The notes beneath the pieces were generated by a model. The model had not been told where the DNA came from. It did not search any database and saw only the letters and a list, made by a program, of their open reading frames with translations. From contig CANTAL010000126.1 of the NCBI GenBank assembly GCA_947650365.1, forward strand, positions 62,001 through 126,000: a stretch of DNA of 64,000 nt. The letters are read 5' to 3'. Source of the DNA: Chamaelirium japonicum (taxonomy: Eukaryota; Streptophyta; Magnoliopsida; Liliales; Melanthiaceae). This document shows, one piece after another, positions 1 to 64,000 of this stretch; position 1 is the stretch's first letter, and each line of letters begins with the position of its first letter. A program made the translations under genes and the position numbers.

Positions 1-1324
1 TCGTACGATCCATTCTAATTCATTCGTACGATCTATTCTAATTCATTCGCACGAATGTATCCAATCTAGTTCATTCGTACGATCCATTCTAATTCATTCG
101 TACGATCCATTCTAATTCATTTGCACGATCCATTCTAATTCATTCGTACGATCCATTTTAATTCATTCATATGATCCATTCTAATTCATTCGTACGATCC
201 ATTCTAATTCATTCGCACGAATGTATCCATTCTAGTTCATTCGTACGATCCATTCTAATTCATTCGTACGATCTATTCTAATTCATTCGCACGATCCATT
301 CTAATTCATTCGTACGATCCATTCTAATTCATTCATATGATCCATTCTAATTCATTCGTACATCCATTCTAATTCATTCGTACGAATGTATCCATTCTAA
401 TTCATTCGTACGATCCATTCTAATTCATTCGTACGATCCATTCTAATTCATTCGTAAGATCCATTCTAATTCATTCCCACGATCCATTCTAATTTATTCG
501 TACGATCCATTCTAATTCATTCGTACGATCTATTCTAATTCATTCGCACGAATGTAACCATTCTAATTCATTCATACGATTCATTCTAATTCATTCGTAT
601 GAGCTATTCTAATTCATTCATACGCTCCATTCTAATTCATTCGTACGATCCATTCTAATTCATTCATACAATCCATTTAGATTCATTCGCACAAATGTAT
701 CCATTCAAATTCATTCGTACGATCCAGTCTAATTCATTCGTACGATCCATTCTAATTCATTCGCATGAATATATCCATTCTAATTCTTTCGTACGATGCA
801 TTCTAATTCATTCGTACGATCCATTCTAATTCATTCTCACAAATGTATCCATTCTAATTCATTCGTACGATCCATTCTAATTCATTCCTACGATCTATTC
901 TAATTCATTCGCTCGAATGTATCCATTTTAATTCATTCGTATGATCCATTCTAATTCATTCGTACGATCTAATTCATTCGTACGATCCATTCTAATTCAT
1001 TCGTACGATCGATTCTAATTCATTCGCACTATCCATTCTAATTCATTCGTACGATCCATTCTAATTCATTCGTATGATCCATTCTAATTTATTCATTCAA
1101 ATATATCCATTCTAATTCATTCGTACGATCCATTCTAATTCATTCGCACGATCCATTCTAATTCATTCACACGAATGTATCCATTCTAATTCATTTGCAC
1201 GATCTATTCTAATTCATTTGTACGATCCATTCTAATTCATTCTAATTCATTCGTACGATCCATTCTACGATCCATTCTAATTCATTCGTATATTCCATTC
1301 TAATTCATTAGCACGATCCATGTT
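1..1324 (+). repeat. Satellite block, + orientation
   Basis: About 55 monomers. The first half shows the regular pattern of six short plus one long monomer (166 bp). Near 960-990 and 1230-1290 there are truncated monomers (CGATCTAATTC, double TCTAATTCATTC, TCTACGATCC). Confidence 0.95.
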
Positions 1325-1347
1325 AATGAATTAGAATGGATCGTACG
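1325..1347 (-). repeat. Single inverted monomer
   Basis: One '-' monomer between GCACGATCCATGTT and GATCCAATC. The right edge is a 16-bp palindrome, TGGATCGTACGATCCA. It is conserved at 41059 and 50842. Confidence 0.93.
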
Positions 1348-2798
1348 ATCCAATCTAATTCATTCATACGATCCATTCTTACTCATTCGTATGATCCATT
1401 CTAATTCAATCGTACGATCCATTCTAATTCATTCGTACGATCCATTCTAATTCCTTCGTACGATCCATTCTAATTCATTCGTACGATCCATTCTAATTCA
1501 TTCGTACGATCCATTCTAATTCCTTTGTACGATCCGTTCTAATTCATTCGTACGATCCATTTTAATTCATTCGCGCAATCTATTCTAATTCATTCGTACG
1601 ATCCATTCTAATTCATTCGTACGATCCATTCTAATTCATTCATACAATCCATTCTAATTTATTCGCACGAATGTATCCATTCTAATTCATTCGTACGATG
1701 CATTCTAATTCATTCGCACAATCTATTCTAATTCATTCATACGATCCATTCTAATTCATTCGCACGAATGTATCCATTCTAATTCATTCATATGATCCAT
1801 TCTACTTCATTCGTACTATCCGTTCTAATTCACTGATACGATCCATTCTAATTCATTCATACGATCCATTCTAATTTATTTGCACGAATATATCCATTCT
1901 AATTCATTCGTACGATCCATTCTAATTCCTTCGTACGATCCATTCTAATTCCTTCGTACGATCCATTCTATTTCATTCGTATGATCCATTCTAATTCCTT
2001 CGTACGATCCATTCTAATTCCTTCGTATCCATTCTAATTCACTCATACGATCCATTCTAATTCATTCGTACGATCCATTCTAATTTATTCATACAATCCA
2101 TTCTAATTCTTTCGCACGAATGTATCCATTCTAATTCATTCGTACGATCAGTTCTAATTCATTCACAAAATCTATTCTAATTCATTCATACGATCCATTC
2201 TAATTCATTCACACGAATATATCCATTCTAAATCATTCATACGATCCATTCTAATTCATTCGTACGATCCATTCTAATTCACTCATACGATCCATTCTAA
2301 TACATTCATACGATCCATTCTAATTTATTTGCACGAATATATCCATTCTAATTCATTCGTACGATCCATTCTAATTCCTTCGTACGATCCATTCTAATTC
2401 ATTCGTACGATCTATTCTAATTCATTCGTACGATCCATTCTAATTCATTCGTACGATCCATTCTAATTCCTTCGTACGATCCATTCTAATTCATTCGTAC
2501 GATCCATTCTAATTCATTCATACAATCCATTCTAATTCTTTCACACGATCCATTCTAATTCATTCGTACGATCCATTCTAATTCATTCGTGCAATCCATT
2601 CTATTTCATTCGTACGATCCATTCTAATTTCTTCGTACGATCCATTCTAATTCATTCATACGATCCATTCTAATTCATTCATACAATCCATTCTAATTCT
2701 TTCACACGATCCATTCTAATTCATTCGTAAGATCCATTCTAATTCATTCGTGCAATCCATTCTAATTCATTCGTGCAATCCATTCTAATTCATTCGTA
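1348..2798 (+). repeat. Satellite block, + orientation
   Basis: About 60 monomers ending at J7. CTAATTCC and CACTCATACG variants are frequent. Its length, 1451 bp, is identical to 50865-52315. Confidence 0.95.
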
Positions 2799-3730
2799 GA
2801 ATAGATTGTACGAATGAATTAGATTGGATCGTACGAATGAATTAGAATGGATCGTACGAAGGAATTAGAATGGATCGTACGAATGAATTAGAATGGATAC
2901 ATTCGTGCGAATGAATTAGAATAGATTGTGCGAATGAATTAGAATGGATCGTACGAATGAATTAGAATGGATCATACGAATGAATTAGAATGGATACATT
3001 CGTGCGAATGAATTAGAATGGATCGGACGAATGAATTAGAATGGATCGTACCAATGAATTAGAATGGATCGTACGAATGAATTAGAATGGATACATTCGT
3101 GCGAATGAATTAGAATTGATCGTACGAATGAATTAGAATGGATCGTGCGAATGAATTAGAATGGATCGTACGAATGAATTAGAATGGATCGTACGAATGA
3201 ACTAGAATGGATACATTCGTGCGAATGAATTTGAATGGATCGTACGAATGAATTAGAATGGATCGTACGAATGAATTAAAATGGATCTTACGAATGAATT
3301 AGAATGGATCGTACGACTAAATTAGAATGGATCGTACGAATGAATTAGAATGGATACATTCGTGCAAATGAATTAGAATGGATCGGACGAATGAATTAGA
3401 ATGGATCATACGAATGAATTAGAATGGGTCAAATGAATGAATTAGAATGGTTACATTCATGCGAATGAATTAGAATGGATCGTACGAATGGATTAGAATG
3501 GATCGTATGAATGGATTAGAATGGATACATTCGAGCGAATGAATTAGAATGGATCGTACGAATGAATTAGAATGGATCGTACGAATGGATTAGAATGGAT
3601 CCTACGAATGGATTAGAATGGATACCTTTGTGCATATGAATTAGAATGGATCGTACGAATGAATTAGAATGGATCATATTAATGAATTAGAATGGATCGT
3701 ACGAATGAATTAGAATGGATACATTCGTGC
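2799..3730 (-). repeat. Satellite block, - orientation
   Basis: About 39 monomers between J7 and J5. Its length, 932 bp, is identical to 52316-53247. A group of GGATTAG variants lies near the right end. Confidence 0.95.
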
Positions 3731-3896
3731 ACGATCCATTATAATTTATTCGCACGAATGTATCCATTCTAATTCATTCGTACGATCCATTCTAATTCAT
3801 TAATATGATCCCTTCTAATTCATTCGTACGATCCATTCTAATTCATATGCACATAGGTATCCATTCTAATTCAGTCGTACGATCCATTCTAATTCA
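3731..3896 (+). repeat. Satellite block, + orientation, 166 bp
   Basis: Seven monomers between J5 and J6. It carries a CATATGCACATAGGTATCC long variant. Five blocks of this same length exist in the window. Confidence 0.95.
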
Positions 3897-6418
3897 GGAT
3901 CGTACGAATGAATTAGAATGGATACATTCGTGCGAATGAATTAGAATTGATCGTATGAATGAATTAGAATGGATCGTGCGAATGAATTAGAATGGATCGC
4001 ATGAATGAATTAGAATGGATCGTACGAATGAACTAGAATGGATACATTCGTGCGAATGAATTAGAATGGATCGTACGAATGAATTAGAATGGATCGTACG
4101 AATGAATTAGAATGGATCTTACGAATGAATTAGAATGGATCGTACGAATGAATTAGAATGGATCGTACGAATGAATTAGAATGGATACATTCGTGCGAAT
4201 GAATTAGAATGGATCGGACGAATGAATTAGAATGGATCGTACGAATGAATTAGAGTGGTTACATTCATGCGAATGAATTAGAATGGATCGTACGAATGGA
4301 TACGAATGGATCATACGAATGGATTAGAATGGATACATTCGAGCGAATGAATTAGAACGGATCATACGAATGAATTAGAATGGATCGTACGAATGGATTA
4401 GAATGGATCCTACGAATGGATTAGAATTGATACCTTTATGCATATGAATTAGAATGGATCGTACGAATGAATTAGAATGGATCATATTAATGAATTAGAA
4501 TGGATCGTACGAATGAATTAGAATGGATACATTCGTGCGAATGAATTAGAATGGATCGTGCGAATCAATTAGACTGGATCGTGCGAATGAATAAGAATAG
4601 ATCATACGAATGAATTAGAATGGATCGTACGAATTAATTAGAATGGATACATTCATGCGAATGAATTAGAATGGATTGTATGAATGAATTAGAATGGATC
4701 GTACGAATGAATTAGAATGGATCATACGAATTAATTAGAATGGATCATACGAATGAATTAGAATGGATCGTACGAATGAATTAGAATGGATTCATTCGTG
4801 CGAATGAATTAAAATGGATTGTGCGAATGAATAAGAACAGATCGTGCGAATGAATTAGAATGGATCGTACGAATGAATTAGAATGGATCGTGCGAATGAA
4901 TTAGAATGGATCGTACGAATGAATTAGAATGGATACATTTGTACGAATGAATTAGAATGGATCGTACGAATGAATTGGAATGGATCGTATGAATGAATTA
5001 GAATGGATCGTACGAATGAATTAGAATGGATCGTGCGAATGAATTAGAATGGATCGTACGAATGAATTTGAATGGATCATACAAATGAACTAGAATGGAT
5101 ACATTCGTGCGAATGAATTAGAATGGATCATACGAATGAATTAGAATGGATCGTACAAATGAATTAGAATGGATCTTTCGAATGAATTAGAATGGATCGT
5201 ACGAATGAATTAGAATGGATCGTACGAATGAATTAGAATGGATACATTCGTGCGAATGAATTAGAATGGATCGGACGAATGAATTAGAATGGATCGTACG
5301 AATGAATTAGAATGGATCGTACGAATGAATTAGAATGGATCCTACGAATAAATTAGAATGGATACATTCGTCCGAATGAATTAGAATGGATCGTGTGAAA
5401 GAATTAGAATGGCGAATGAATTAGAATGGATACATTTGTGCGAATGAATTAGAATGGATCGTACGAATGAATTAGAATGGATCGTATGAAAGAATTAGAA
5501 TGGATCGTACGAATTAATTAGAATGGATCGTGCGAATGAATTAGAATGGATTGTATGAATGAATTAGAATGGATCATACGAATGAATTAGAATGGATACA
5601 TTCTTGCGAATGAATTAGAATGGATCGTACGAATGAATTAGAATGGATTGTACGAATGAATTAAAATGGATCTTACGAATGAATTATAATGGATCGTACG
5701 AATGAATTAGAATGGATCGTACGAATGAATTAGAATGGATCTTACGAATGAATTAGATTAGATCGTACGAATAAATTAGAATGGATCGTATGAATGATTT
5801 AGAATGGATACATTCGTGCGAATGAATTAGAATGGATCGGACGAATGAATTAGAATGGATCGTAGGAATGAATTAGAATGGATCAAATGAATGAATTAGA
5901 ATGGTTACATTCATGCGAATGAATTAGAATGGATCGTACGAATGGATTAGAATGGATCGGACGAATGGATTAGAATGGATACATTCGTGCGAATAAATTA
6001 GAATGGATCATACGAATGAGTAAGAATGGATCGTACGAATGAAATAGAATGGATTGTACGAATGAATTAGAATGGATCGTGCGAATGAATTTGAATGGAT
6101 TGTACGAATGAATTAGAATGGATCGTGCTAATGAATTAGAATTGATCGTACGAATGAAATAGAATGGATTGTAGGAATGATTTAGAATGGATCATACGAA
6201 TGAATTAGAATGGATCGTACGAATGATATAGAATGGATATATTCGTGCGAATGAATTAGAATGGATCATACGAATGAGTAAGAATGGATCGTACGAATGA
6301 AATAGAATGGATTGTACGAATGAATTAGAATGGATTCGTACGAATGAATTAGAATGGATACATTCGTGCGAATGAATTAGAATGGATCGTATGAATGAAT
6401 TAGAATAGATTGTGCGAT
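3897..6418 (-). repeat. Satellite block, - orientation
   Basis: About 105 monomers between J6 and J8. It matches 53414-55912 with one extra 23-bp monomer. A truncated monomer (GAATTAGAATGGCGAATG) lies near 5405. Confidence 0.95.
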
Positions 6419-6691
6419 CGTACGATCCATTCTAATTCATTCGTACGATCCATTCTAATTCATTCGTAAGATCCATTCTAATTCATTCGTACGATCTATT
6501 CTAATTCATTCGTACGATCCATTCTAATTCATTCGCACGAATGTATCTATTCTAGTTCATTCATACGATCCATTCTAATTCATTCGTACGATCCATTCTA
6601 ATTCATTTGCACGATCCATTCTAATTCATTCGTACGATCAATTCTATTTCATTCGCACGAATGTATCCATTCTAATTCATTCGTACGATCC
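6419..6691 (+). repeat. Satellite block, + orientation, 273 bp
   Basis: About 11 monomers between J8 and J9. The identical length occurs at 47226 and 55913. Confidence 0.95.
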
Positions 6692-7389
6692 TGAATTAGA
6701 ATGGATCGTACGAATGAATTAGAATGGATCGTACGAATGAACTAGAATGGATACATTCGTGTGAATGAATTAGAATGGATCGTACGAATGAATTAGAATG
6801 GATCATACGAATGAATTAGAATGGATCGTACGAATGAATTAGAATGGATCATACGAATGAATTAGAATGGATCATACGAATGAGTAATAATGGATCGTAC
6901 GAATGAAATAGAATGGATTGTACGAATGAATTAGAATGGATCGTACGAATGAATTAGAATGGATCGTGTGAAAGAATTAGATTGGATTGTATGAATGAAT
7001 TAGAATGGATCATATGAATGAATTAGAATGGATCGTGCGAAGGAATTCGAATGGATCGTACGAAAGAATTAGAATGGATCGTACGAATTAATTAGAATGG
7101 ATACATTCGTGCGAATGAATTAGAATGGATTCATTCGTGCGAAAGAATTAGAATAGATCGTATGAATGAATTAGAATGGATCCTATAAATGAATTAGAAT
7201 AGATCGTGCAAATGAATTAGAATGGATCGTACGAATGAATTAGAATGGATCGTGCTAATGAATTAGAATTGATCGAACGAATGAATTAGCATGGATCGTG
7301 CTAATGAATTAGAATGGAACGTACGAATGAATTAGAATGGATCGTGTGAAAGAATTAGAATGGATTGTATGAATGAATTAGAATGAATT
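6692..7389 (-). repeat. Satellite block, - orientation, 698 bp
   Basis: About 30 monomers between J9 and J3. The identical length occurs at 47499 and 56186. It contains GTGCTAATG and GAACGAATG variants. Confidence 0.95.
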
Positions 7390-7838
7390 CGTACGATCCA
7401 TTCGAATTGATTCGCACGATCCATTCTAATTCATTCCTACGATCCATTCTAATTCATTCATACAATCCATTCTAATTCTTTCACACGATCCATTCTAATT
7501 CATTCGTAGGATCCATTCTAATTCATTCGAACAATCTATTCTATTTCATTCGTACGATCCATTCTTACTCATTCGTATGATCCATTCTAATTCATTCGGA
7601 CGAATGTATCCATTCTAATTTATTCGTACGATCCATTCTAATTCATTCGTACGATCCATTCTAATTCATTCGTACGATCCATTCTTACTTATTCGTATGA
7701 TCCATTCTAATTCATTCGTACGATCCATTCTAATTCATTCTTACGATCCATTCTAATTCATTCGCATAATCTATTCTAATTCATTCGTACGATCCATTCT
7801 AATTCATTCGTACGATCCATTCTAATTCATTCGTACGA
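7390..7838 (+). repeat. Satellite block, + orientation
   Basis: About 19 monomers between J3 and J10. It carries several TTCTTACTCATTC variants that remove the usual TAA. Confidence 0.95.
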
Positions 7839-7853
7839 TCGTACGAATGAATT
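7824..7853. repeat. 30-bp perfect palindrome at J10
   Basis: Centred on CGATCG where '+' monomers meet '-' monomers. It is shorter than the equivalent sites in copies C and B because an ATTCG variant interrupts the right arm. Confidence 0.95.
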
Positions 7854-8596
7854 CGAATGGATCGTACAGAATGAATTAGAATGGATTGTATGAATGAATT
7901 AGAATGGAGACATTCGTGTGAATGAATTAGAATGGATCATACGAATGAGTAAGAATGGATCGTACGAATGAAATAGAATGGATTGTACGAATGAATTAGA
8001 ATGGATCGTACAAATGAATTAGAATGGATCGTACGAATGAATTAGAATGAATCATACGAATGAGTAAGAATGGATCGTACAAATGAAAGAGAATGGATTG
8101 TACGAATGAATTAGAATGGATCGTACGAATGAATTAGAATGGATCGTGTGAACGAATTAGAATGCATTGTATGAATGAATTAGAATGGATCGTATGAATG
8201 AATTAGAATGGATCGTGCGAATGAATTCGAATGGATCGCATAATCCATTCGAATAGAATGGATCATATGAATGAATTAGAATGGATCGGGCGAATGAATT
8301 AGAATGGATTGTAGGAATGAATTAGAATGGATCGTATGAATGAATTAGAATGGATCGTATGAATGAATTAGAATGGATCGTGCGAATGAATTAGAATGGA
8401 TCTTACGAATGAATTAGAATGGATCGTACGAATGAATTAGAAAGGATCATACGAATGAATTAGAATGGATCATACGAATGAGTAAGAATGGATCGTATGA
8501 ATGAAATAGAATGGATTATACGAATGAATTAGAATGGATACATTCATGCGAATGAATTAGAATGGATCGGACGATTGAATTAGAATGGATCGTACG
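7839..8596 (-). repeat. Satellite block, - orientation, 758 bp
   Basis: About 33 monomers between J10 and J11. It contains the CGCATA micro-inversion. The same length occurs at 48577 and 57310. Confidence 0.95.
8225..8254. repeat. Inverted repeat with 12-bp arms, 6-base spacer
   Basis: ATTCGAATGGAT, spacer CGCATA, then the complement. It is a micro-inversion of about half a monomer inside a '-' block, and is also found at 48963 and, imperfect, near 57708. Confidence 0.9.
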
Positions 8597-9544
8597 ATTC
8601 ATTCTAATCATTCGTACGATCCATTCTAATACATTCGTACGATTCATGCTAATTCATTCGCACGATCCATTCTAATTCATTCGTACGAATGTATCCATTC
8701 TAATTCATTCGTACGATCCATTCTAATTCATTAATATGATCCATTCTAATTCATTCGTCCGATCCATTCTAATTCATTCGCACGAATGTATCCATTCTAA
8801 TTCATTCGTACGATCCATTCTAATTCATTCGTAAGATCCATTCTAATTCATTCGTACGATCCATTCTAATTCATTCGTACGATCCATTCTAATTCATTCG
8901 CACGAATGTATCCATTCTAGTTCATTCATACGATCCATTCTAATTCATTCGTACGATCCATTCTAATTCATTCGCACGATCCATTCTAATTCATTCGTAC
9001 GATCCATTCTAATTCATTCATACGATCCATTCTAATTCATTCGTACGATCCATTCTAATTTATTCGCACGATCCATTCTAATTCATTCGTACGATCCATT
9101 CTAATTCTTTCACACGATCCATTCTAATTCATTCGTACGATCCATTCTAAATCATTTGCACGATCCATTCTAATTCATTCATATGATCCATACTAATTTA
9201 TTCGTATGATCCATTCTAATTAATTCGTATGATCCATTCTAATTCATTCGTACGATCCATTCTAATTCATTCATACAATCCATTCTAATTCATTCGCACG
9301 AATGTATCCATTCTAATTAATTCGTACGATCCATTCTAATCCATTTGTATGATCTATTCTTATTCATTCGTACGATCCAGTCTAATTGATTCGCACGATC
9401 CATTCTAATTCATTCGCACGAATGTATCCATTCGAATTCATTCGTACGATCCATTCTAATTCATTAATATGATCCATTCTAATTCATTCGTACGATCCAT
9501 TCTAATTCATATGCACAAAGGTATCCATTCTAATTCATTCGCCC
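8597..9544 (+). repeat. Satellite block, + orientation
   Basis: About 40 monomers between J11 and J12. It is four monomers (92 bp) shorter than its partner 58068-59107. Confidence 0.95.
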
Positions 9545-9846
9545 GAAAGAATTAGAATGGATTGTATGAAAGAATTAGAATGGATCGTGTGAATGAATTA
9601 GAATGGATCGTACGAAGGAATTAGAATGGATCGTATGAAGGAATTAGAATGGATCATACGAATTAGTAAGAATGGATCGTACGAATGAAATAGAATAGAT
9701 TGTACGAATGAAATTGAATGGATCCTACGAATGAATTAGAATGGATCGTGTGATAGAATTAGAATGGATTGTATGAATGAATTAGAATAGATCGTATGAA
9801 TGAATTAGAATGGATTGTGCGAATGAATTCGAATGGATCGTACGAA
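9545..9846 (-). repeat. Satellite block, - orientation, 302 bp
   Basis: About 13 monomers between J12 and J1. The identical length occurs at 59108. Confidence 0.95.
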
Positions 9847-12065
9847 TTCATTCTAATTCATTCATACAATCCATTCTAATTCTTTCACACGATCCATTCT
9901 AATTCATTCGTACGTTCCATTCTAATTCATTAGCACGATCCATGCTAATTCATTCGTTCGATCAATTCTAATTCATTAGCACGATCCATTCTAATTCATT
10001 CGTACGATCCATTCTAATTCATTCGCACGATCCATTCTAATTCATTCATAGGATCCATTCTAATTCATTCATACGATCTATTCTAATTCTTTCGCACGAA
10101 TGTATCCATTCTAATTCATTCGCACGAATGTATCCATTCTAATTCATTCGTACGATCCATTCTAATTCATTCGTACGATCCATTCTAATTCATTCATACG
10201 ATCTATTCTAATTCATTCATACAATCCATTCTAATTTTTTCACACGATCCATTCTAATTCATTCGTACGATCCATTCTAATTCATTCGCACAATCCGTTC
10301 TATTTCATTCATACGATCCATTCTTACTCATTGGTATGATCCATTCTAATTCATTCGCACGAATGTATCCATTCTAATTCATTCGTACGAATCCATTCTA
10401 ATTCATTCGTACAATCCATTCTATTTCATTCGTACGATCCATTCTTACTCATTCGTATGATCCATTCTAATTCATTCGCACGAATGTATCCATTCTAAAT
10501 CATTCGTACGATCCATTCTATTTCATTCGTACGATCCATTCTAAATCATTCGTACAATCCATTCTATTTCATTCGTACGATCAATTCTAATTCATTAGCA
10601 TGATCCATTATAATTCATTTGTACGATCCATTCAAATTCATTCGCACGATCCATTCTAATTCATTCGTACAATCCATTCTATTTCATTCGTACGATCCAT
10701 TCTTACTCATTCGTATGATCCATTCTAATTCATTCACACGAATGTATCCATTCTAATCCATTCGTACGATCCATTCTAATCCATTCGTATGATCCATTCT
10801 AATTCATTCGCATGAATGTAACCATTCTAATTCATTCATTTGATCCATTCTAATTCATTCGTACGATCCATTCTAATTCATTCGTCCGATCCATTCTAAT
10901 TCATTCGCACGAATGTATCCATTCTAAACCATTCATACGATCCATTCTAATTTATTCGTACGATCTATTCTAATTCATTCGTAAGATCCATTCTAATTCA
11001 TTCGTACGATCCATTCTAATTCATTCGTACGATCCATTCTAATTCATTCGTCCGATCCATTCTAATTCATTTGCACGAATGTATCCATTCTAGTTCATTC
11101 GTACGATCCATTCTAATTCATTCGTACGATCCATTCTAATTCATTCGCACGATCCATTCTAATTCATTCGTACGATCCATTCTAATTCATTCATACGATC
11201 CATTCTAATTCATTCGTACGATCCATTCTAATTCATTCGCACAAATGTATCCATTCTAATTCATTCGTACGATCCATTCTAATTCATTCGCATGATCCAT
11301 TCTAATTCATTCGTACGATCCATTCTAATTCTTTCACACGATCCATTCTAATTCATTCGTACGATCCATTCTAATTCATTCGCACGATCCATTCTAATTC
11401 ATTCGTACGATCAATTCTAATTCATTCATACGATCCATTCTAATTCATTCGTACGATCCATTCTAATTCATTCGCACAAATGTATCCATTCTAATTCATT
11501 CGTACGATCCATTCTAATTCATTCGCACGATCCATTCTAATTCATTCGTACGATCCATTCTAATTCATTCGCACAATCTGTTCTTATTCATTCGCACAAT
11601 CCATTCTAATTCATTCGCACGAATGTATCCATTCTAATTCATTCGTACGATCCATTCTAATTCATTCGTACGATCCATTCTAATTCATTCGTACGATCCA
11701 TTCTAATTCATTCGTATGATCCATTCTAATTCATTCGTACGATCCATTCTAATTCATTCATACAATCCATTCTAATTCATTCATACAATCCATTCTAATT
11801 CATTCGTACGATCCATTCTAATTCACTCATACGATCCATTCTAATACATTCATAGGATCCATTCTAATTCATTTGCACGAATATATCCATTCTAATTCAT
11901 TCGTACGATCCATTCTAATTCCTTCGTACGATCTATTCTAATTCATTCGTACGATCCATTCTAATTCTTTCGTACGATCCATTCTAATTTCTTCGTACGA
12001 TCCATTCTAATTCATTCGTACGATCCATTCTAATTCATTCGTACAATCTATTCTAATTCATTCGT
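9847..12065 (+). repeat. Satellite block, + orientation
   Basis: About 94 monomers between J1 and J4. It is two monomers longer than 59410-61582. The GATCTGTTCTTATTC variant near 11575 is shared with 18233, 22922, 26667 and 61140. Confidence 0.95.
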
Positions 12066-15789: not shown

Positions 15790-16238
15790 CGTACGATCCA
15801 TTCGAATTCATTCGCACGATCCATTCTAATTCATTCATACAATCCATTCTAATTCATTCATACAATCCATTCTAATTTTTCACACGATCCATTCTAATTC
15901 ATTCGTAGGATCCATTCTAATTCATTCGTACAATCTATTCTATTTCATTCGTACGATCCATTCTTACTCATTCGTATGATCCATTCTAATTCATTTGGAC
16001 GAATGTATCCATTCTAATTTATTTGTACGATTCATTCTAATTAATTCGTACGATCCATTCTAATTTATTCGTACGATCCATTCTAATTCATTCGTCCGAT
16101 CCATTCTAATTCATTCGCACGAATGTATCCATTCTAATTCATTCGTAGGATCCATTCTAATTCATTCGTACGATCCATTCTAATTCATTCGTAAGATCCA
16201 TTCTAATTCATTCATACAATCCATTCTAATTCATTCGT
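15790..16238 (+). repeat. Satellite block, + orientation
   Basis: About 19 monomers from J3 to the centre of the 40-bp palindrome. Confidence 0.95.
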
Positions 16239-50841: not shown

Positions 50842-50864
50842 AATGAATTAGAATAGATCGTACG
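50842..50864 (-). repeat. Single inverted monomer
   Basis: The copy B counterpart of the inverted monomer at 1325. Confidence 0.93.
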
Positions 50865-52315: not shown

Positions 52316-53247
52316 GAATAGATTGTACGAATGAATTAGAATGGATCGTACGAATGAATTAGAATGGATCGTACGAAGGAATTAGAATGGATCGTACGAA
52401 TGAATTAGAATGGATACATTCGTGCGAATGAATTAGAATGGATTGTGCGAATGAATTAGAATGGATCGTACGAATGAATTAGAATGGATCATACGAATGA
52501 ATTAGAATGGATACATTCGTGCGAATGAATTAGAATGGATCGGACGAATGAATTAGAATGGATCGTACGAATGAATTAAAATGGATCGTACGAATGAATT
52601 AGAATGGATACATTCGTGCGAATGAATTAGAATTGATCGTACGAATGAATTAGAATGGATCGTGCGAATGAATTAGAATGGATCGTACGAATGAATTAGA
52701 ATGGATCGTACGAATGAACTAGAATGGATACATTCGTGCGAATGAATTAGAATGGATCGTACGAATGAATTAGAATGGATCGTACGAATGAATTAGAATG
52801 GATCTTACGAATGAATTACAATGGATCGTACGACTAAATTAGAATGGATCGTACGAACGAATTAGAATGGATACATTCGTGCAAATGAATTAGAATGGAT
52901 CGGACGAATGAATTAGAATGGATCGTACGAATGAATTAGAATGGGTCAAATGAATGAATTAGAATGGTTACATTCATGCGAATGAATTAGAATGGATCGT
53001 ACGAATTGATTAGAATGGATCGTATGAATGGATTAGAATGGATACATTCGAGCGAATGAATTAGAATGGATCGTACGAATGAATTAGAATGGATCGTACG
53101 AATGGATTAGAATGGATCCTACGAATGGATTAGAATGGATACCTTTGTGCATATGAATTAGAATGGATCGTACGAATGAATTAGAATGGATCATATTAAT
53201 GAATTAGAATGGATCGTACGAATGAATTAGAATGGATACATTCGTGC
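52316..53247 (-). repeat. Satellite block, - orientation, 932 bp
   Basis: The copy of 2799-3730, equal in length. Confidence 0.95.
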
Positions 53248-53413
53248 ACGATCCATTATAATTCATTCGCACGAATGTATCCATTCTAATTCATTCGTAC
53301 GATCCATTCTAATTCATTAATATGATCCCTTCTAATTCATTCGTACGATCCATTCTAATTCATATGCACATAGGTATCCATTCTAATTCATTCGTACGAT
53401 CCATTCTAATTCA
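53248..53413 (+). repeat. Satellite block, + orientation, 166 bp
   Basis: The copy of 3731-3896, including the rare ATAGGTATCC variant. Confidence 0.95.
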
Positions 53414-55912
53414 GGATCGTACGAATGAATTAGAATGGATACATTCATGCGAATGAATTAGAATTGATCGTATGAATGAATTAGAATGGATCGTGCGAAT
53501 GAATTAGAATGGATCGCATGAATGAATTAGAATGGATCGTACGAATGAACTAGAATGGATACATTCGTGCGAATGAATTAGAATGGATCGTACGAATGAA
53601 TTAGACTGGATCGTACGAATGAATTAGAATGGATCTTACGAATGAATTAGAATGGATCGTACGAATGAATTAGAATGGATCGTACGAATGAATTAGAATG
53701 GATACATTCGTGCGAATGAATTAGAATGGATCGGACGAATGAATTAGAATGGATCGTACGAATGAATTAGAATGGATTAAATGAATGAATTAGAGTGGTT
53801 ACATTCATGCGAATGAATTAGAATGGATCGTACGAATGGATTTGAATGGATCGTACGAATGGATTAGAATGGATACATTCGAGCGAATGAATTAGAACGG
53901 ATCATACGAATGAATTAGAATGGATCGTACGAATGGATTAGATTGGATCCTACGAATGGATTAGAATGGATACCTTTATGCATATGAATTAGAATGGATC
54001 GTACGAATGAATTAGAATGGATCATATTAATGAATTAGAATGGATCGTACGAATGAATTATAATGGATACATTCGTGCGAATGAATTAGAATGGATCGTG
54101 CGAATCAATTAGACTGGATCGTGCGAATGAATAAGAATAGATCATACGAATGAATTAGAATGGATCGTACGAATTAATTAGAATGGATACATTCGTGCGA
54201 ATGAATTAGAATGGATTGTATGAATGAATTAGAATGGATCGTACGAATGAATTAGAATGGATCATACGAATTAATTAGAATGGATCATACGAATGAATTA
54301 GAATGGATCGTACGAATGAATTAGAATGGATTCATTCGTGCGAATGAATTAAAATGGATTGTGCGAATGAATAAGAACAGATCGTGCGAATGAATTAGAA
54401 TGGATCGTACGAATGAATTAGAATGGATCGTGCGAATGAATTAGAATGGATCGTACGAATGAATTAGAATGGATACATTTGTGCGAATGAATTAGAATGG
54501 ATCGTACGAATGAATTAGAATGGATCGTACGAATGAATTAGAATGGATCGTGCGAATGAATTAGAATGGATCGTACGAATGAATTTGAATGGATCATATG
54601 AATGAACTAGAATGGATACATTCGTGCGAATGAATTAGAATGGATCATACGAATGAATTAGAATGGATCGTACAAATGAATTAGAATGGATCTTTCGAAT
54701 GAATTAGAATGGATCGTACGAATGAATTAGAATGGATCGTACGAATGAATTAGAATGGATACATTCGTGCGAATGAATTAGAATGGATCGGACGAATGAA
54801 TTAGAATGGATCGTACGAATGAATTAGAATGGATCCTACGAATAAAATAGAATGGATACATTCGTCCGAATGAATTAGAATGGATCGTGTGAAAGAATTA
54901 GAATGGCGAATGAATTAGAATGGATACATTTGTGCGAATGAATTAGAATGGATCGTACGAATGAATTAGAATGGATCGTATGAAAGAATTAGAATGGATC
55001 GTACGAATTAATTAGAATGGATCGTGCGAATGAATTAGAATGGATTGTATGAATGAATTAGAATGGATCATACGAATGAATTAGAATGGATACATTCGTG
55101 CGAATGAATTAGAATGGATCGTACGAATGAATTAGAATGGATTGTACGAATGAATTAGAATGGATCTTACGAATGAATTATAATGGATCGTACGAATGAA
55201 TTAGAATGGATCGTACGAATGAATTAGAATGGATCTTACGAATGAATTAGATTAGATCGTACGAATAAATTAGAATGGATCGTATGAATGATTTAGAATG
55301 GATACATTCGTGCGAATGAATTAGAATGGATCGGACGAATAAATTAGAATGGATCGTACGAATGAATTAGAATGGATCAAATGAATGAATTAGAATGGTT
55401 ACATTCATGCGAATGAATTAGAATGGATTGTACGAATGGATTAGAATGGATCGGACGAATAGATTAGAATGGATACATTCGTGCGAATGAATTAGAATGG
55501 ATCATACGAATGAGTAAGAATGGATCGTATGAATGAAATAGAATGGATTGTACGAATGAATTAGAATGGATCGTGCGAATGAATTTGAATGGATTGTACG
55601 AATGAATTAGAATGGATCGTGCTAATGAATTAGAATTGATCGTACGAATGAAATAGAATGGATTGTACGAATGATTTAGAATGGATCGTACGAATGAATT
55701 AGAATTGATCGTACGAATGATATAGAATGGATACATTCGTGCGAATGAATTAGAATGGATCATACGAATGAGTAAGAATGGATCGTACGAATGAAATAGA
55801 ATGGATTGTACGAATGAATTAGAATGGATTCGTACGAATGAATTAGAATGGATACATTCGTGCGAATGAATTAGAATGGATCATATGAATGAATTAGAAT
55901 AGATTGTGCGAT
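53414..55912 (-). repeat. Satellite block, - orientation
   Basis: The copy of 3897-6418, one monomer shorter. It holds a 99-codon chance ORF at 55464-55763. Confidence 0.95.
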
Positions 55913-56185
55913 CGTACGATCCATTCTAATTCATTCGTACGATCCATTCTAATTCATTCGTAAGATCCATTCTAATTCATTCGTACGATCCATTCTAATT
56001 CATTCGTACGATCCATTCTAATTCATTCGCACGAATGTATCCATTCTAGTTCATTCGTACGATCCATTCTAATTCATTCGTATGATCCATTCTAATTCAT
56101 TCGCACGATCCATTCTAATTCATTCGTACGATCAATTCTATTTCATTCGCACGAATGTATCCATTCTAATTCATTCGTACGATCC
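55913..56185 (+). repeat. Satellite block, + orientation, 273 bp
   Basis: The copy of 6419-6691. Confidence 0.95.
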
Positions 56186-56883
56186 TGAATTAGAATGGAT
56201 CGTACGAATGAATTAGAATGGATCGTACGAATGAACTAGAATGGATACATTCGTGCGAATGAATTAGAATGGATCGTACGAATGAATTAGAATGGATCGT
56301 ACGAATGAATTAGAATGGATCGTACGAATGAATTAGAATGGATCATACGAATGAATTAGAATGGATCATACGAATGAGTAATAATGGATCGTACGAATGA
56401 AATAGAATGGATTGTACGAATGGATTAGAATGGATCGTACGAATGAATTAGAATGGATCGTGTGAAAGAATTAGATTGGATTGTATGAATGAATTAGAAT
56501 GGATCATATGAATGAATTAGAATGGATCGTGCGAAGGAATTCGAATGGATCGTACGAAAGAATAAGAATGGATCGTACGAATGAATTAGAATGGATACAT
56601 TCGTGCGAATGAATTAGAATGGATTCATTCGTGCGAAAGAATTAGAATAGATCGTATGAATGAATTAGAATGGATCCTATAAATGAATTAGAATAGATCG
56701 TGCAAATGAATTAGAATGGATCGTACGAATGAATTAGAATGGATCGTGCTAATGAATTAGAATTGATCGAACGAATGAATTAGCATGGATCGTGCTAATG
56801 AATTAGAATGGAACGTACGAATGAATTAGAATGGATCGTGTGAAAGAATTAGAATGGATTGTATGAATGAATTAGAATGAATT
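56186..56883 (-). repeat. Satellite block, - orientation, 698 bp
   Basis: The copy of 6692-7389. Confidence 0.95.
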
Positions 56884-57309
56884 CGTACGATCCATTCGAA
56901 TTGATTCGCACGATCCATTCTAATTCATTCATACGATCCATTCTAATTCATTCATACAATCCATTCTAATTCTTTCACACGATCCATTCTAATTCATTCG
57001 TAGGATCCATTCTAATTCATTCGTACAATCTATTCTATTTCATTCGTACGATCCATTCTTACTCATTCGTATGATCTATTCTAATTCATTCGGACGAATG
57101 TATCCATTCTAATTTATTCGTACGATCCATTCTAATTCATTCGTACGATCCATTCTAATTCATTCGTACGATCCATTCTTACTTATTCGTATGATCCATT
57201 CTAATTCATTCGTACGATCCATTCTAATTCATTCTTACGATCCATTCTAATTCATTCGCATAATCTATTCTAATTCATTCGTACGATCCATTCTAATTCA
57301 TTCGTACGA
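56884..57309 (+). repeat. Satellite block, + orientation
   Basis: The copy of 7390-7838, one monomer shorter. Confidence 0.95.
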
Positions 57310-57339
57310 TCGTACGAATGAATTAGAATGGATCGTACG
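57280..57339. repeat. 60-bp perfect palindrome at J10
   Basis: The same structure and the same terminating extra G as at 48547, showing that the two sites descend from one event. Confidence 0.95.
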
Positions 57340-58067
57340 GAATGAATTAGAATGGATTGTATGAATGAATTAGAATGGAGACATTCGTGCGAATGAATTA
57401 GAATGGATCATACGAATGAGTAAGAATGGATCGTACGAATAAAATAGAATGGATTGTACGAATGAATTAGAATGGATCGTACAAATGAATTAGAATGGAT
57501 CGTACGAATGAATTAGAATGAATCATACGAATGAGTAAGAATGGATCGTACAAATGAAATAGAATGGATTGTACGAATGAATTAGAATGGATCGTACGAA
57601 TGAATTAGAATGGATCGTGTGAAAGAATTAGAATGCATTGTATGAATAAATTAGAATGGATCGTATGAATGAATTAGAATGGATCGTGCGAATGAATTTG
57701 AATGGATCGCATAATCCATTCGAATAGAATGGATCGTATGAATGAATTAGAATGGATCGGGCGAATGAATTAGAATGGATTGTAGGAATGAATTAGAATG
57801 GATCGTATGAATGAATTAGAATGGATCGTATGAATGAATTAGAATGGATCGTGCGAATGAATTAGAATGGATCATACGAATGAATTAGAATGGATCGTAC
57901 GAATGAATTAGAAAGGATCATACGAATGAATTAGAATGGATCAGACGAATGAGTAAGAATGGATCGTACGAATGAAATAGAATGGATTGTACGAATGAAT
58001 TAGAATGGATACATTCATGCGAATGAATTAGAATGGATCGGACGATTGAATTAGAATGGATCGTACG
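57310..58067 (-). repeat. Satellite block, - orientation, 758 bp
   Basis: The copy of 7839-8596. A 66-codon chance ORF at 57918-58118 straddles its right edge. Confidence 0.95.
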
Positions 58068-59107
58068 ATTCATTCTAATCATTCGTACGATCCATTCTAA
58101 TACATTCGTACGATTCATGCTAATTCATTCGCACGATCCATTCTAATTCATTCGTACGAATGTATCCATTATAATTCATTCGTACGATCCATTCTAATTC
58201 ATTAATATGATCCATTCTAATTCATTCGTCCGATCCATTCTAATTCATTCGCATGAATGTATCCATTCTAATTCATTCGTACGATCCATTCTAATTCATT
58301 CGTAAGATCCATTCTAATTCATTCGTACGATCCATTCTAATTCATTCGTACGATCCATTCTAATTCATTCGCACGAATGTATCCATTCAAGTTCATTCAT
58401 ACGATCCATTCTAATTCATTCGTACGATCCATTCTAATTCATTCGCACGATCCATTCTAATTCATTCGTACGATCCATTCTAATTCATCCATACGATCCA
58501 TTCTAATTCATTCGTACGATCCTTTCTAATTCATTCGCACGATCCATTCTAATTCATTCGTACGATCCATTCTAATTCTTTCACACGATCCATTCTAATT
58601 CATTCGTACGATCCATTCTAAATCATTTGCACGATCCATTCTAATTCATTCGTACGATTCATTCTAATTCATTCGTACGATCCATTCTAATTCATTCGCA
58701 CGATCCATTCTAATTCATTCGTACGATCCATTCTAATTCATTCGTATGATCCATTCTAATTTATTCGTATGATCCATTCTAATTAATTCGTATGATCCAT
58801 TCTAATTCATTCGTACGATCCATTCTAATTCATTCATACAATCCATTCTAATTCATTCGCACGAATGTATCCATTCTAATTAATTCGTACGATCCATTCT
58901 AATCCATTTGTATGATCTATTCTTATTCATTCGTACGATCCAGTCTAATTGATTCGCACGATCCATTCTAATTCATTCGCACGAATGTATCCATTCTAAT
59001 TTATTCGTACGATCCATTCTAATTCATTAATATGATCCATTCTAATTCTTTCGTACGATCCATTCTAATTCATATGCACAAAGGTATCCATTCTAATTCA
59101 TTCGCAC
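58068..59107 (+). repeat. Satellite block, + orientation
   Basis: The copy of 8597-9544 plus four monomers near 58650-58750. Confidence 0.95.
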
Positions 59108-59409
59108 GAAAGAATTAGATTGGATTGTATGAAAGAATTAGAATGGATCGTGGGAATGAATTAGAATGGATCGTACGAAGGAATTAGAATGGATCGTATG
59201 AAGGAATTAGAATGGATCATACGAATGAGTAAGAATGGATCGTACGAATGAAATAGAATAGATTGTACGAATGAAATTGAATGGATCCTACGAATGAATT
59301 AGAATGGATCGTGTGAAAGAATTAGAATGGATTGTATGAATGAATTAGAATGGATCGTATGAATGAATTAGAATGGATTGTGCGAATGAATTCGAATGGA
59401 TCGTACGAA
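59108..59409 (-). repeat. Satellite block, - orientation, 302 bp
   Basis: The copy of 9545-9846. Confidence 0.95.
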
Positions 59410-61582
59410 TTCATTCTAATTCATTCATACAATCCATTCTAATTCTTTCACACGATCCATTTTAATTCATTCGTACGTTCCATTCTAATTCATTAGCACG
59501 ATCCATGCTAATTCATTCGTTTGATCAATTCTAATTCATTAGCACGATCCATTCTAATTCATTCGTACGATCCATTCTAATTCATTCGCACGATCGATTC
59601 TAATTCATTCATAGGATCCATTCTAATTCATTCATACGATCTATTCTAATTCTTTCGCACGAATGTATCCATTCTAATTCATTCGCACGAATGTATCCAT
59701 TCTAATTCATTCGTACGATCCATTCTAATTCATTCGTACGATCCATTCTAATTCATTCATACGATCTATTCTAATTCATTCATACAATCCATTCTAATTT
59801 TTTCACACGATCCATTCTAATTCATTCGTACGATCCATTCTAATTCATTCGCACAATCCGTTCTATTTCATTCATACGATCCATTCTTACTCATTGGTAC
59901 GATCCATTCTAATTCATTCGCACGAATGTATCCATTCTAATTCATTCGTACGAATCCATTCTAATTCATTCGTACAATCCATTCTATTTTATTCGTACGA
60001 TCAATTCTTACTCATTCGTATGATCCATTCTAATTCATTCGCACGAATGTATCCATTCTAAATCATTCGTACGATCCATTCTAATTCATTCGTACGATCC
60101 ATTCTAAATCATTCATACAATCCATTCTATTTCATTCGTACGATCAATTCTAATTCATTAGCACGATCCATTATAATTCATTTGTACGATCCATTCAAAT
60201 TCATTCGCACGATCCATTCTAATTCATTCGTACAATCCATTCTATTTCATTCGTACGATCCATTCTTACTCATTCGTATGATCCATTCTAATTCATTCGC
60301 ACGAATGTATCCATTCTAATCCATTCGTACGATCCATTCTAATCCATTCGTACGATCCATTCTAATTCATTCGCATGAATGTAACCATTCTAATTCATTC
60401 ATTTGATCCATTCTAATTCATTCGTACGATCCATTCTAAGTCATTCGTCCGATCCATTCTAATTCATTCGCACGAATGTATCCATTCTAAACCATTCATA
60501 CGATCCATTCTAATTTATTCGTACGATCCATTCTAATTCATTCGTAAGATCCATTCTAATTCATTCGTACGATCCATTCTAATTCATTCGTACGATCCAT
60601 TCTAATTCATTCGTACGATCCATTCTAATTCATTCGTACGATCCATTCTAATTCATTCGCACGAATGTATCCATTCTAGTTCATTCGTACGATCCATTCT
60701 AATTCATTCGCACGATCCATTCTAATTCATTCGTACGATCCATTCTAATTTATTCATACGATCCATTCTAATTCATTCGTACGATCCATTCTAATTCATT
60801 CGCACAAATGTATCCATTCGAATTCATTCGTACGATCCATTCTAATTCATTCGCACGATCCATTCTAATTCATTCGTACGATCCATTCTAATTCTTTCAC
60901 ACGATCCATTCTAATTCATTCGTACGATCCATTCTAATTCATTCGCACGATCCATTCTAATTCATTCGTACGATCAATTCTAATTCATTCATACGATCCA
61001 TTCTAATTCATTCGTACGATCCATTCTAATTCATTCGCACAAATGTATCCATTCTAATTCATTCGTACGATCCATTCTAATTCATTCGCACGATCCATTC
61101 TAATTCATTCGTACGATCCATTCTAATTCATTCGCACGATCTGTTCTTATTCATTCGCACAATCCATTCTAATTCATTTGCACGAATGTATCCATTCTAA
61201 TTCATTCGTACGATCCATTCTAATTCATTCGTACGATCCATTCTAATTCATTCGTACGATCCATTCTAATTCATTCGTACGATCCATTCTAATTCATTCA
61301 TACAATCCATTCTAATTCATTCATACAATCCATTCTAATTCACTCATACGATCCATTCTAATACATTCATAGGATCCATTCTAATTCATTTGCACGAATA
61401 TATCCATTCTAATTCATTCGTACGATCCATTCTAATTCCTTCGTACGATCTATTCTAATTCATTCGTACGATCCATTCTAATTCTTTCGTACGATCCATT
61501 CTAATTTCTTCGTACGATCCATTCTAATTCATTCGTACGATCCATTCTAATTCATTCGTACAATCTATTCTAATTCATTCGT
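59410..61582 (+). repeat. Satellite block, + orientation
   Basis: The copy of 9847-12065, two monomers shorter. Confidence 0.95.
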
Positions 61583-62596
61583 ACGAATGGATACATTCGT
61601 GTGAATAAATTAGAATGGATCGTACGAATGAGTAAGAATGGATCGTACGAATGAAATAGAATGGATTGCACGAATGAATTAGAATGGATCGTACGAATGA
61701 ATTAGAATGGATTGTATGAATGAATTAGAATGGATCGTACGAATGAATTAGAATGGATCATACGAATTAATTAGAATGGATCATACGAATGAATTAGAAT
61801 GGATCGTACGAATGAATTAGAATGGATCGTACGAATGAATTAGAATGGATACATTCGTGCGAATGAATTAAAATGGATTGTGCGAATGAATAAGAACAGA
61901 TCATGCGAATGAATTAGAATGGATCGTACGAATGAATTAGAATGGATCGTGCGAATGAATTAGAATGGATCGTACGAAGGAATTAGAATGGATACATTTG
62001 TGCGAATGAATTATAATGGATCGTACGAATGAATTATAATGGATCGTATGAATGAATTAGAATGGATCGTACGAATGACTTAGAATGGATCGTGCGAATG
62101 AATTAGAATGGATCGTACGAATGAACTAGAATGGATACATTCGTGCGAATGAATTAGAATGGATCGTACGAATGAATTAGAATGGATCGTACGAATGAAT
62201 TAGAATGGATCTTACGAATGAATTAGAATGGATCGTACGAATGAATTAGAATGGATCGTACGAATGAATTAGAATGGATACATTCGTGCGAATGAATTAG
62301 AATGGATCGGACGAATGAATTAGAATGGATCGGACGAATGAATTAGAATGGATCGTACGAATAAATTAGAATGGATACATTCGTCCGAATGAATTAGAAT
62401 GGATCATACGAATGAGTAAGAATGGATCGTACGAATGAAATAGAATAGATTGTACGAATGAATTAGAATGGATCCTACGAATGAATTAGAATGGATCGTG
62501 TGAAAGAATTAGAATGGATTGCATGAATGAATTAGAATGGATCATATGAATGAATTAGAATGGATCGTGCGAATGAATTCGAATGGATCGTACGAA
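61583..62596 (-). repeat. Satellite block, - orientation, 1014 bp
   Basis: The copy of 12066-13079, equal in length. Confidence 0.95.
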
Positions 62597-63811
62597 TTCA
62601 TTCTAATTCATTTATACAATCTATTCTAATTCTTTCACACGATCCATTCTAATTCATTCGTACGTTCCATTCTAATTCATTAGCACGATCCATGCTAATT
62701 CATTCGTTCGATCAATTCTAATTCATTAGCACGATCCATTCTAATTCATTCGTACGATCCATTCTAATTCATTCGCACGATCCATTCTAATTCATTCATA
62801 GGATCCATTCTAATTCATTCATACGATCTATTCTAATTCTTCCGCACGAATGTATCCATTCTAATTCATTCGCACGAATGTATCCATTCTAATTCATTCG
62901 TACGATCCATTCTAATTCATTTGTACGATCCATTCTAATTCATTTATACGATCTATTCTAATTCATTCATACAATCCATTCTAATTCTTTCACACGATCC
63001 ATTCTAATTCATTTATTTGATCCATTCTAATTCATTCGCACAATCCATTCTATTTCATTCGTACGATCCATTCTTACTCATTGGTACGATCCATTCTAAT
63101 TCATTTGCACGAATGTATCCATTCTAATTCATTCGTACAAATCCATTCTAATTCATTCGTACAATCCATTCTATTTCATTCATACGTTCCATTCTTACTC
63201 ATTCGTATGATCCATTCTAATTCATTCGCACGAATGTATCCATTCTAAATCATCCGTACGATCCATTCTAATTCATTAGTACGATCCATTCTATATCATT
63301 CATACAATCCATTCTATTTCATTCGTACGATCAATTCTAATTCATTAGCACGATCCATTCTAATTCATTCGTACGATCCATTCAAATTCATTCGCACGAT
63401 CCATTCTAATTCATTCGTATAATCCATTCTATTTCATTCGTACGATCCATTCTTACTCATTCGTATGATCCATTCTAATTCATTCGCACGAATGTATCCA
63501 TTCTAATCCATTCGTACGATCTATTCTAATCCATTCGTACGATCCATTCTAATTCATTCGCATGAATGTAACCATTCTAATTCATTCATTTGATCCATTC
63601 TAATTCATTCGTACGATCCATTCTAATTCATTCGTCCGATCCATTCTAATTCATTCGCACGAATGTATCCATTCTAAACCATTCATACGATCCATTCTAA
63701 TTTATTCGTACGATCCATTTTAATTCATTCATAAGATCTATTCTAATTCGTTCGTACGATCCATTCTAATCCATTCGTACGATCCATTCTTACTCATTCG
63801 TATGATCCATT
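62597..63811 (+). repeat. Satellite block, + orientation, 1215 bp
   Basis: The copy of 13080-14294, equal in length. Confidence 0.95.
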
Positions 63812-64000
63812 ATGGATACATTCGTGCGAATGAATTAGAATGGATCATATGAATGAGTAAGAATGGATCGTACGAATGAAATAGAATGGATTGTGCGAAT
63901 GAATTAGAATGGATCGTACGAATGAATTAGAATGGATCGTGTGAAAGAATTAGAATGGCGAATGAATTAGAATGGATACATTTGTGCGAATGAATTAGAA
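63812..64000 (-). repeat. Satellite block, - orientation, cut by window end
   Basis: About eight monomers after J2. It follows 14295 onward and continues beyond the window. Confidence 0.95.

Follow-up and report, generated by a model that had tools for sequence, protein, structure and literature searches.

The DNA analysed here (64,000 bp, referred to in its whole length as the window) is a satellite array of alternating orientation, in which most strand switches occur at a limited set of reused junctions. The array is very probably composed of Chio1/Chio2, the CENH3-bound holocentromere repeat of Chionographis japonica, and most of its joins were probably formed once and then copied between chromosomes, whereas a second set of junctions has a recurrent appearance. 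The satellite fills the window from end to end without interruption. Its tandem-repeat consensus units are a 23-bp monomer and a 28-bp variant that differ by a 5-bp indel and one substitution, and it contains TTCGTACGA with 8-bp dyad symmetry, as do Chio1/Chio2. The identification follows from the fit of the monomer lengths, the 5-bp indel plus single substitution, and TTCGTACGA to the available text of PMC10264360 and PMC12722358; the monomers were matched by eye to their verbal description in PMC10264360. That description shares with the window 23- and 28-bp monomers, an 8-bp dyad, and mixed forward/reverse arrays, and it gives CENH3 enrichments of 11.1- and 11.7-fold for two clusters and roughly 100 centromere units in Chionographis japonica. 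Chio1/Chio2 arrays of mixed orientation are thus already published (Kuo et al. 2023, PMC10264360). By comparison with these papers, the window satellite is very probably plant centromere DNA.

A total of 73 orientation reversals had been reported for this array in the earlier note. An 8-mer two-state HMM reproduced this number (91, 73, 73, 73, and 69 switches at five switch penalties), and a circular profile HMM built on the 23-bp monomer placed 65 switches (two other penalties gave 63 and 71); the surplus of eight is due to four tiny inverted intervals of 10–27 bp. Blocks between switches range from 49 to 2986 bp in length, and orientation is nearly balanced, with 31,659 bases in forward (F) and 32,341 bases in reverse (R) orientation. 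The window flips strand about once per kb and the sampled arrays about 1.1 times (312 switches in 284 kb).

When both strands were read, the 65 switches fell into 13 classes, 11 of which are multi-copy in the window and together hold 63 of the switches (Table 1), in agreement with the small set of reused junctions claimed previously. The circular profile HMM recovered all eight positions quoted for J1 exactly and all seven for J2 to within 1 base. The reverse-complement copies of J1 would form a separate class if one strand alone were read. K5 was located 174–178 bp away from a K6 junction in nine sampled cases on three contigs, and K3, K4, and K7 jointly account for 12 of the 65 window switches. 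The class threshold of 4 of 40 core bases is a choice, and thresholds of 2, 3, 4, 5, and 6 result in 83, 72, 63, 55, and 42 classes, respectively. Agreement within 4 of 40 core bases was observed for 2426 of 24,027 same-type junction pairs, compared to a chance level of 113, 174, and 128 pairs in three sets for which real satellite was joined at random.

Table 1. Repeat structure and junction classes of the window (positions in bp; F, forward; R, reverse).
Feature	Location	Strand	Details
Satellite array	1..64000	.	66 blocks, median 814.5 bp
14.5-kb compound block, copy one	1..14483	+	repeated at 49517-64000, 95.0% identity
14.5-kb compound block, copy two	49517..64000	+	
Near-tandem repeat, 4.7-kb offset	29094..39324	+	29094-34680 vs 33833-39324, 94.3%
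Micro-inversions	1324/1341, 24695/24722, 41065/41075, 50842/50858		8-mer HMM
17-bp micro-inversion	1324..1340	-	counterpart 50842-50857 inside 14.5-kb duplication
J1 (class K0), R to F	9747..9946 (representative)	+	+ copies 9846, 13079, 25240, 30861, 35515, 44880, 59409, 62596
J1 reverse-complement copies (six)	7386, 15786, 33062, 37716, 48193, 56880		
J2 (class K2), F to R	31146..31345 (representative)	+	copies 14295, 31246, 32566, 35900, 37220, 46073, 63812
Class K1, F to R	34009..34048	-	12068, 18726, 20674, 23369, 34029, 38683, 61585
Class K5, F to R	28522..28561	+	3897, 6692, 27812, 28542, 29272, 43156, 47499, 53414, 56186
Class K6, R to F	29074..29113	+	3719, 28366, 29094, 42978, 53236
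Class K3, F to R	16215..16254	.	centre = 8-bp palindrome TCGTACGA; 9539, 16235, 22030, 59102
Class K4, R to F	17188..17227	.	centre = TCGTACGA; 8590, 17208, 49328, 58061
Class K7, R to F	22059..22098	.	mostly GATC-centred; 20971, 22079, 32392, 37046

A scan of the whole assembly, along the lines proposed in the earlier note, found the cores of both J1 and J2 thousands of times and in both orientations. The exact 35-bp core of J1 occurs 13,576 times genome-wide (6780 on the plus and 6796 on the minus strand) and the exact core of J2 7,861 times (3964 and 3897, respectively); these strand figures are whole counts, and the listings of places, one of which omits minus-strand places present in locus L016, were not used. 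Neither two made-up 35-bp junctions nor the J1 and J2 patterns read backwards had a match in the genome. The exact canonical core of K4 was counted 2174 times on the plus and 2154 times on the minus strand, but since this core is palindromic the two figures mostly represent identical sites counted on each strand. In the genome DNA searches, 40 of 424 candidates were scored in one case and 40 of 446 in another. Loci found via J1 (L001–L008) were excluded from the class counts, a locus that is not satellite (L022) and the COX1 loci L012–L015 were dropped, and one of the 312 junctions was removed for lying within 60 bases of an end, leaving 311; low-scoring or mixed loci (L027, L034, L035) were excluded from the counts for clean loci and from the baselines. 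With the window included, 256 of the 311 sampled junctions belong to a class also present on another contig. The same applies to 61 of the 65 window junctions, and at clean loci outside contig C138 111 of 172 junctions belong to a class also present in the window. J1 was detected on 8 of 11 sampled contigs. Class sharing was uneven (1/5 on C6, 5/14 on C12, 8/20 at C4:66.9 Mb, and 15/25 on C8). The idea that degenerate loci share fewer classes was not borne out, as the worst-scoring locus (C9:73.3 Mb) nevertheless shared 8/8.

Flank ancestry, assessed by start-anchored alignment because free end gaps let flanks slide within a tandem repeat, divided the 15 largest classes into two kinds. Eleven of them (K0, which is J1; K2, which is J2; K1, K5, K6, K8–K12, and K14) are linked: 60–100% of their pairs have a common flank at an identity of at least 94%, compared to 2.5% for one random flank, and their flanks are related even across contigs, over a median of approximately 300 bp. 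Flanks of J1 compared between contigs had a median identity of 0.96 at a distance of 20–70 bp (baseline 0.86) and of 0.85 at 220–420 bp (baseline 0.81). In contrast, only 9–16% of the pairs were linked in K3, K4, K7, and K13, whose cross-contig flanks were near (K3, K4) or at (K7) the baseline, and at or near it in K13, a class of five copies that lacks a palindrome. The previous assertion that each inversion arose once is thus supported in the 11 linked classes but not in these four, within which flanks resemble the baseline and a recurrent or very old origin looks likely; unrelated flanks inside a class are what the earlier note had named as evidence against its interpretation. K8 is GATC-centred and yet linked (0.75), so a palindromic centre need not mean unlinked flanks.

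That junctions in general re-form at preferred sites, through sequence-directed breakage or hairpin folding and not by descent, is unlikely. Such hot spots would fit K3, K4, K7, and K13, which combine an equal core with baseline-like flanks, and they agree with the microhomology of at least 2 bases found at 18 of 43 class breakpoints, compared to 19.1% of random joins; among multi-copy classes the figure is 11 of 27, or 8 of 23 once K3, K4, K7, and K8 are set aside. However, they do not account for the flank similarity far above baseline in the 11 linked classes, nor for the recurrence of neighbouring junction pairs on another contig with a spacing within 10%, which was observed in 50 of 288 cases (null mean 14.2, maximum 29); when spacing was disregarded, neighbouring class pairs were not enriched (124 of 288, against a null mean of 112 and a maximum of 136). 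Joins at a TCGTACGA centre made up 49 of the 311 junctions, compared to 5.8% of 996 random joins, but this excess was absent when counted per class (2 of 43). Mirror symmetry of the junction arms, as a test for fold-backs, exceeded the 95th percentile of the baseline in 8 of 301 junctions. One case was strong (L011:3576; about 98% over 200 bp, followed by decay). Junction arms thus do not mirror each other, and there is hardly any sign of recent fold-backs.

Spread of the junctions by duplication of larger compound units, as suggested in the earlier note, is supported inside the array, where the 14.5-kb block is repeated. Tracts common to different contigs are mostly short, with a median of 292 bp and a maximum of 2984 bp (266 pairs; baseline median 49, 238 pairs). 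In chromosome-specific higher-order repeats of the alpha-satellite type, copies cluster by chromosome. In the J1 tree, copies did not group by contig (18 changes, with as few or fewer in 65 of 300 shuffles), and the mean flank identity of J1 was 0.932 within the same unit, 0.925 within the same contig, and 0.924 to other contigs. Copies of K2 did group by contig (10 changes, with as few or fewer in 0 of 300 shuffles) and those of K1 did so weakly (22 of 300 shuffles), which indicates that mixing is incomplete.

The closest precedent is provided by the conserved inversion sites of Tribolium madens (PMC13081366). The available text of that paper describes macro-dyad satellites in putative (peri)centromeric arrays that reverse at such sites, represented by 2044, 3486, and 6428 sequences at 98.2–98.9%. 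J1 and J2 resemble this type in reversing orientation at conserved sites that exist in thousands of copies. The Tribolium arrays differ in their elements of approximately 110 bp, predominantly two subarrays per array, and three named inversion types (PMC13081366), whereas dozens of classes, of two kinds by flank ancestry, were found here; the window is divided into 66 short blocks and not into two long, roughly symmetric inverted subarrays. The Chama satellite of the sister genus species Chamaelirium luteum is CENH3-bound and has the 9-bp motif TTCGTACGA in common with the window satellite, but consists of 60-bp monomers in arrays that run in one direction over hundreds of kb, according to the part of PMC12722358 available. 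For Chio1/Chio2, the accessible text of PMC10264360 mentions a higher-order cluster, CL73, and arrays of mixed orientation; it does not describe classes of junctions, how many copies these have, or how far centromere units share them. No report of junction reuse in Chio arrays was found among titles and the opening lines of abstracts, and one may be in print in supplements or on bioRxiv.

Still less probable than hot spots is that selection maintains the alternation as a structural requirement of the centromere, in the form of a macro-dyad or cruciform, and conserves the junctions for function. The similar organisation with conserved inversion sites reported from Tribolium (PMC13081366) and the 8-bp dyad noted in PMC10264360 are in line with this explanation, as is the somewhat lower divergence of cores than of flanks, seen in each of three comparisons (2.4/3.2%, 1.9/3.2%, and 1.7/3.1%), although this difference is small and biased because the classes were chosen on the core; there may be mild constraint on junction cores. 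Against it, identity falls smoothly across hundreds of bases beyond the core, the related Chama arrays are described as consistently oriented (PMC12722358), and the class frequencies fit neutral turnover by drift (homozygosity 0.147 vs 0.133 for FR and 0.098 vs 0.099 for RF). Satellite arrays are prone to misassembly, but a reading of the switches as assembly errors, that is, mis-joined inverted arrays, is very unlikely, because a base-exact join repeated as often, in both orientations, and on as many contigs as J1 is not what such errors would produce.

A single origin followed by copying thus remains the preferred explanation for most classes. The join, usually with a characteristic misfit, would probably have formed one time and would then have been copied to arrays on many chromosomes, thousands of times for J1 and J2. 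Homology-driven exchange, such as ectopic gene conversion, break-induced copying, or re-insertion of circles, may have achieved this copying. Since an R-to-F junction stays R-to-F on either strand, it could take the place of any other R-to-F junction whichever way round the two lie, and equal copy numbers in both orientations would result. Duplication of larger compound units inside an array adds to this. The second set, chiefly centred on TCGTACGA, a palindrome of the monomer itself, has little or no flank ancestry in common and looks like the product of recurrent fold-back or microhomology joining; recurrence is preferred here over great age.

According to the available text of Kuo et al. 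2025 (PMC12722358), it is not known how the centromere units of C. japonica came to be distributed along whole chromosomes, and non-allelic gene conversion has been suggested. An inversion junction whose breakpoint is idiosyncratic makes a good tag for centromere DNA that moves between chromosomes. If each junction formed once, a copy on another chromosome represents a transfer, and tract lengths, rates, and barriers therefore become measurable from an assembly. The flank test also helps to tell descent from function at "conserved inversion sites" such as those of Tribolium. Reused junctions make the spread of holocentromere units countable. It is conceivable, though put forward tentatively, that the approximately 100 centromere units form one exchanging population in which R-to-F and F-to-R junctions drift neutrally like two allele series, and that orientation-blind conversion homogenises the holocentromere and may explain its spread.

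Satellite fills the entire window (satellite fraction 1.00), the 10-kb pieces on either side of it and the first 10 kb of its contig, C138, are also satellite, and the two strand orientations of the blocks, F and R, are nearly equally represented (31,659 and 32,341 bases). The monomer lengths, the 5-bp indel plus one substitution between monomer variants and the shared TTCGTACGA fit the 23-/28-bp satellites Chio1 and Chio2 of Chionographis japonica as described in the available text of PMC10264360 (Kuo et al. 2023) and PMC12722358 (Kuo et al. 2025). The same text reports CENH3 enrichment of these satellites and a mixed, frequently alternating orientation of their arrays, so that the alternation per se is already known.

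An 8-mer HMM detected 73 strand switches in the window, the number claimed in the earlier note, and a circular profile HMM of the 23-bp monomer detected 65; the surplus of eight consists of four inverted intervals of 10–27 bp. The 311 junctions analysed came from the window, from three further 10-kb segments of C138 and, on ten other contigs, from 19 segments of this size that bear satellite (L022, the one remaining segment of 20 fetched, was not satellite). The distribution of their core distances is bimodal: it peaks at 1 and 16 mismatches per 40 and has its minimum at 7. A threshold of 4 mismatches in the 40-bp core gave 63 classes, including 34 singletons (Good's coverage 0.89, Chao1 133). 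When three loci that scored low or were mixed are set aside, 269 junctions form 43 classes (coverage 0.94; Chao1 58, a lower bound for the genome). Close same-type core pairs numbered 2426 of 24,027, compared with 113, 174, and 128 in random joins of real satellite. The proposed small set of reused junctions was borne out, since the 65 window switches fall into 13 classes, with 63 switches in classes recurring inside the window; 61 belong to classes found on another contig. Across all samples this applies to 256 of 311 junctions, or to 189 of 244 if classes K3, K4, K7, and K13 are excluded. Sharing is uneven among loci: the majority share most of their junctions, and low values were found on C6 (1/5), C12 (5/14), C4 at 66.9 Mb (8/20), and C8 (15/25). 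At the C8 locus L033 (C8:1841001-1851000), switch density reaches 25 per 10 kb, approximately twice the average of the sampled satellite.

Descent of the 15 largest classes (K0–K14; K0 is the R-to-F junction J1 and K2 the F-to-R junction J2) was assessed by aligning the sequence outside the 40-bp core from the junction outward and comparing it with phase-matched random satellite from other contigs. For J1, the between-contig medians in four successive bins were 0.96, 0.96, 0.91, and 0.85 (109 flank comparisons), well above the random values of 0.86, 0.86, 0.85, and 0.81, whereas flanks were close to random in K3 (0.86, 0.86, 0.81, 0.77 versus 0.84, 0.86, 0.81, 0.75) and K4 (0.86, 0.88, 0.88, 0.83 versus 0.84, 0.86, 0.84, 0.80). 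Pairs were regarded as linked if one flank reached at least 94% identity over 100 bp, scored by the best pairing out of at most four for K3, K4, K7, and K8, for which both orientations were tried because their cores are nearly symmetric, and out of two for the other classes; the single-flank baseline of 0.025 corresponds arithmetically to roughly 0.10 and 0.05, respectively. Linkage was 0.60–1.00 in K0, K1, K2, K5, K6, K8–K12, and K14, for which the proposal that each inversion arose once is supported, but it is not supported for K3 (0.15), K4 (0.16), K7 (0.09), and K13 (0.10). An 8-bp palindrome forms the centre of K3 and K4 and GATC that of most K7 copies, whereas K13 (five copies) lacks a palindrome; K8 is GATC-centred yet linked (0.75), with cross-contig flank medians near the core of just 0.90 versus 0.88. 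Joins at the centre of TCGTACGA make up 49 of the 311 junctions, compared with 5.8% of 996 random joins in the identical pipeline, but only 2 of 43 when counted by class. We read the four unlinked classes as recurrent in origin; they may instead be very old.

Exact 35-place junction cores were searched in 1,518,659,071 bases in 3253 contigs. Read in the standard code, copies of COX1 in this assembly have stop-free frames of approximately 532 aa, as in plant mitochondria, and a full copy of equal score occurs, among the matches listed, on at least 59 contigs between C514 and C3216; many redundant, presumably mitochondrial, fragments were thus kept. J1 cores were found 6780 times on the plus and 6796 times on the minus strand (13 and 13 in 284 kb of sampled satellite) and J2 cores 3964 and 3897 times, while both patterns read backwards and two made-up junctions of canonical monomers had no match genome-wide. 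The seamless palindrome-centred R-to-F join had 2174 plus and 2154 minus matches, mostly the same sites read from both strands. Among the matches listed, these joins cluster on C1 near 1–3, 27–31, 40, 49–51, 65–67, 76, 115–119, and 134–135 Mb, in agreement with published work describing several units on each chromosome.

Flank identity of J1 is nearly independent of distance (0.932 within a unit, 0.925 within a contig, 0.924 between contigs). Its tree (39 rows, 19 from C138) showed no clustering by contig (an equally low value in 65 of 300 shuffles); clustering was weak for K1 (22/300) and clear for K2 (0/300). In clean loci outside C138, class frequencies fit a model of neutral turnover: 273 and 410 of 1000 simulations equalled or exceeded the observed unevenness. 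The samples were small, and recurrent classes were lumped in. Divergence is somewhat lower in cores than in flanks (2.4 versus 3.2%, 1.9 versus 3.2%, 1.7 versus 3.1%), but cores were chosen for similarity, which makes this weak evidence; the cores may nevertheless be under mild constraint.

Shared tracts (identity of at least 0.9 in 60-bp windows; linked classes, with no more than 40 pairs from each class and category) had a median of 292 bp between contigs (maximum 2984; 266 pairs), 297 bp between units of one contig (83 pairs), and 401 bp within a unit (maximum 5964; 217 pairs), against a baseline of 49 bp, for which flanks extended at most 600 bp per side (238 pairs). For 50 of 288 neighbouring junction pairs, another contig carried the same pair at a spacing within 10% (null mean 14.2, maximum 29; 300 shuffles); with spacing ignored there was no excess (124; null mean 112, maximum 136). 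Duplicated compound blocks in the window measure 14.5 kb (95.0%) and 5.6 kb (94.3%), the former suggesting a long-period compound organisation of the array. Large duplications were therefore observed locally, where the suggested spread by larger compound units applies, and between-contig sharing involves mostly short pieces, or longer pieces since eroded.

Contig and duplicated block of the window
Feature	Position	Details
Window contig	C138	880,813 bp
14.5-kb block, two copies	window 1-14483 and 49517-64000	~49.5 kb apart, 95% identity

According to the available text of PMC13081366, Tribolium madens likewise has conserved inversion sites occurring thousands of times, but its blocks are longer and fewer; its authors state that macro-dyads were previously documented in Tribolium only. 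In the sister genus, the satellite Chama has the palindrome in common with the window satellite but is described without strand switching in the accessible part of PMC12722358, which argues that the palindrome is insufficient for switching.

Breakpoint microhomology is in modest excess (at least two bases in 18 of 43 classes versus a null of 19.1%, P ~5e-4; 11 of 27 multi-copy classes, P ~0.008), which is compatible with an origin by template switching or mediated by microhomology. Few junctions looked like fresh fold-backs with mirror arms: 8 of 301 exceeded the 95th percentile of the baseline, one of them strongly (L011:3576). This J1 copy has arms mirroring each other at ~98% over 200 bp past the core (next junction 0.935), possibly by recent arm-to-arm conversion or fold-back. 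Since an R-to-F junction stays R-to-F in reverse complement, a homologous swap between such junctions would be orientation-blind: one could be replaced by another via homology, regardless of orientation. Such replacement would explain the 1:1 orientation ratio with no further assumptions.
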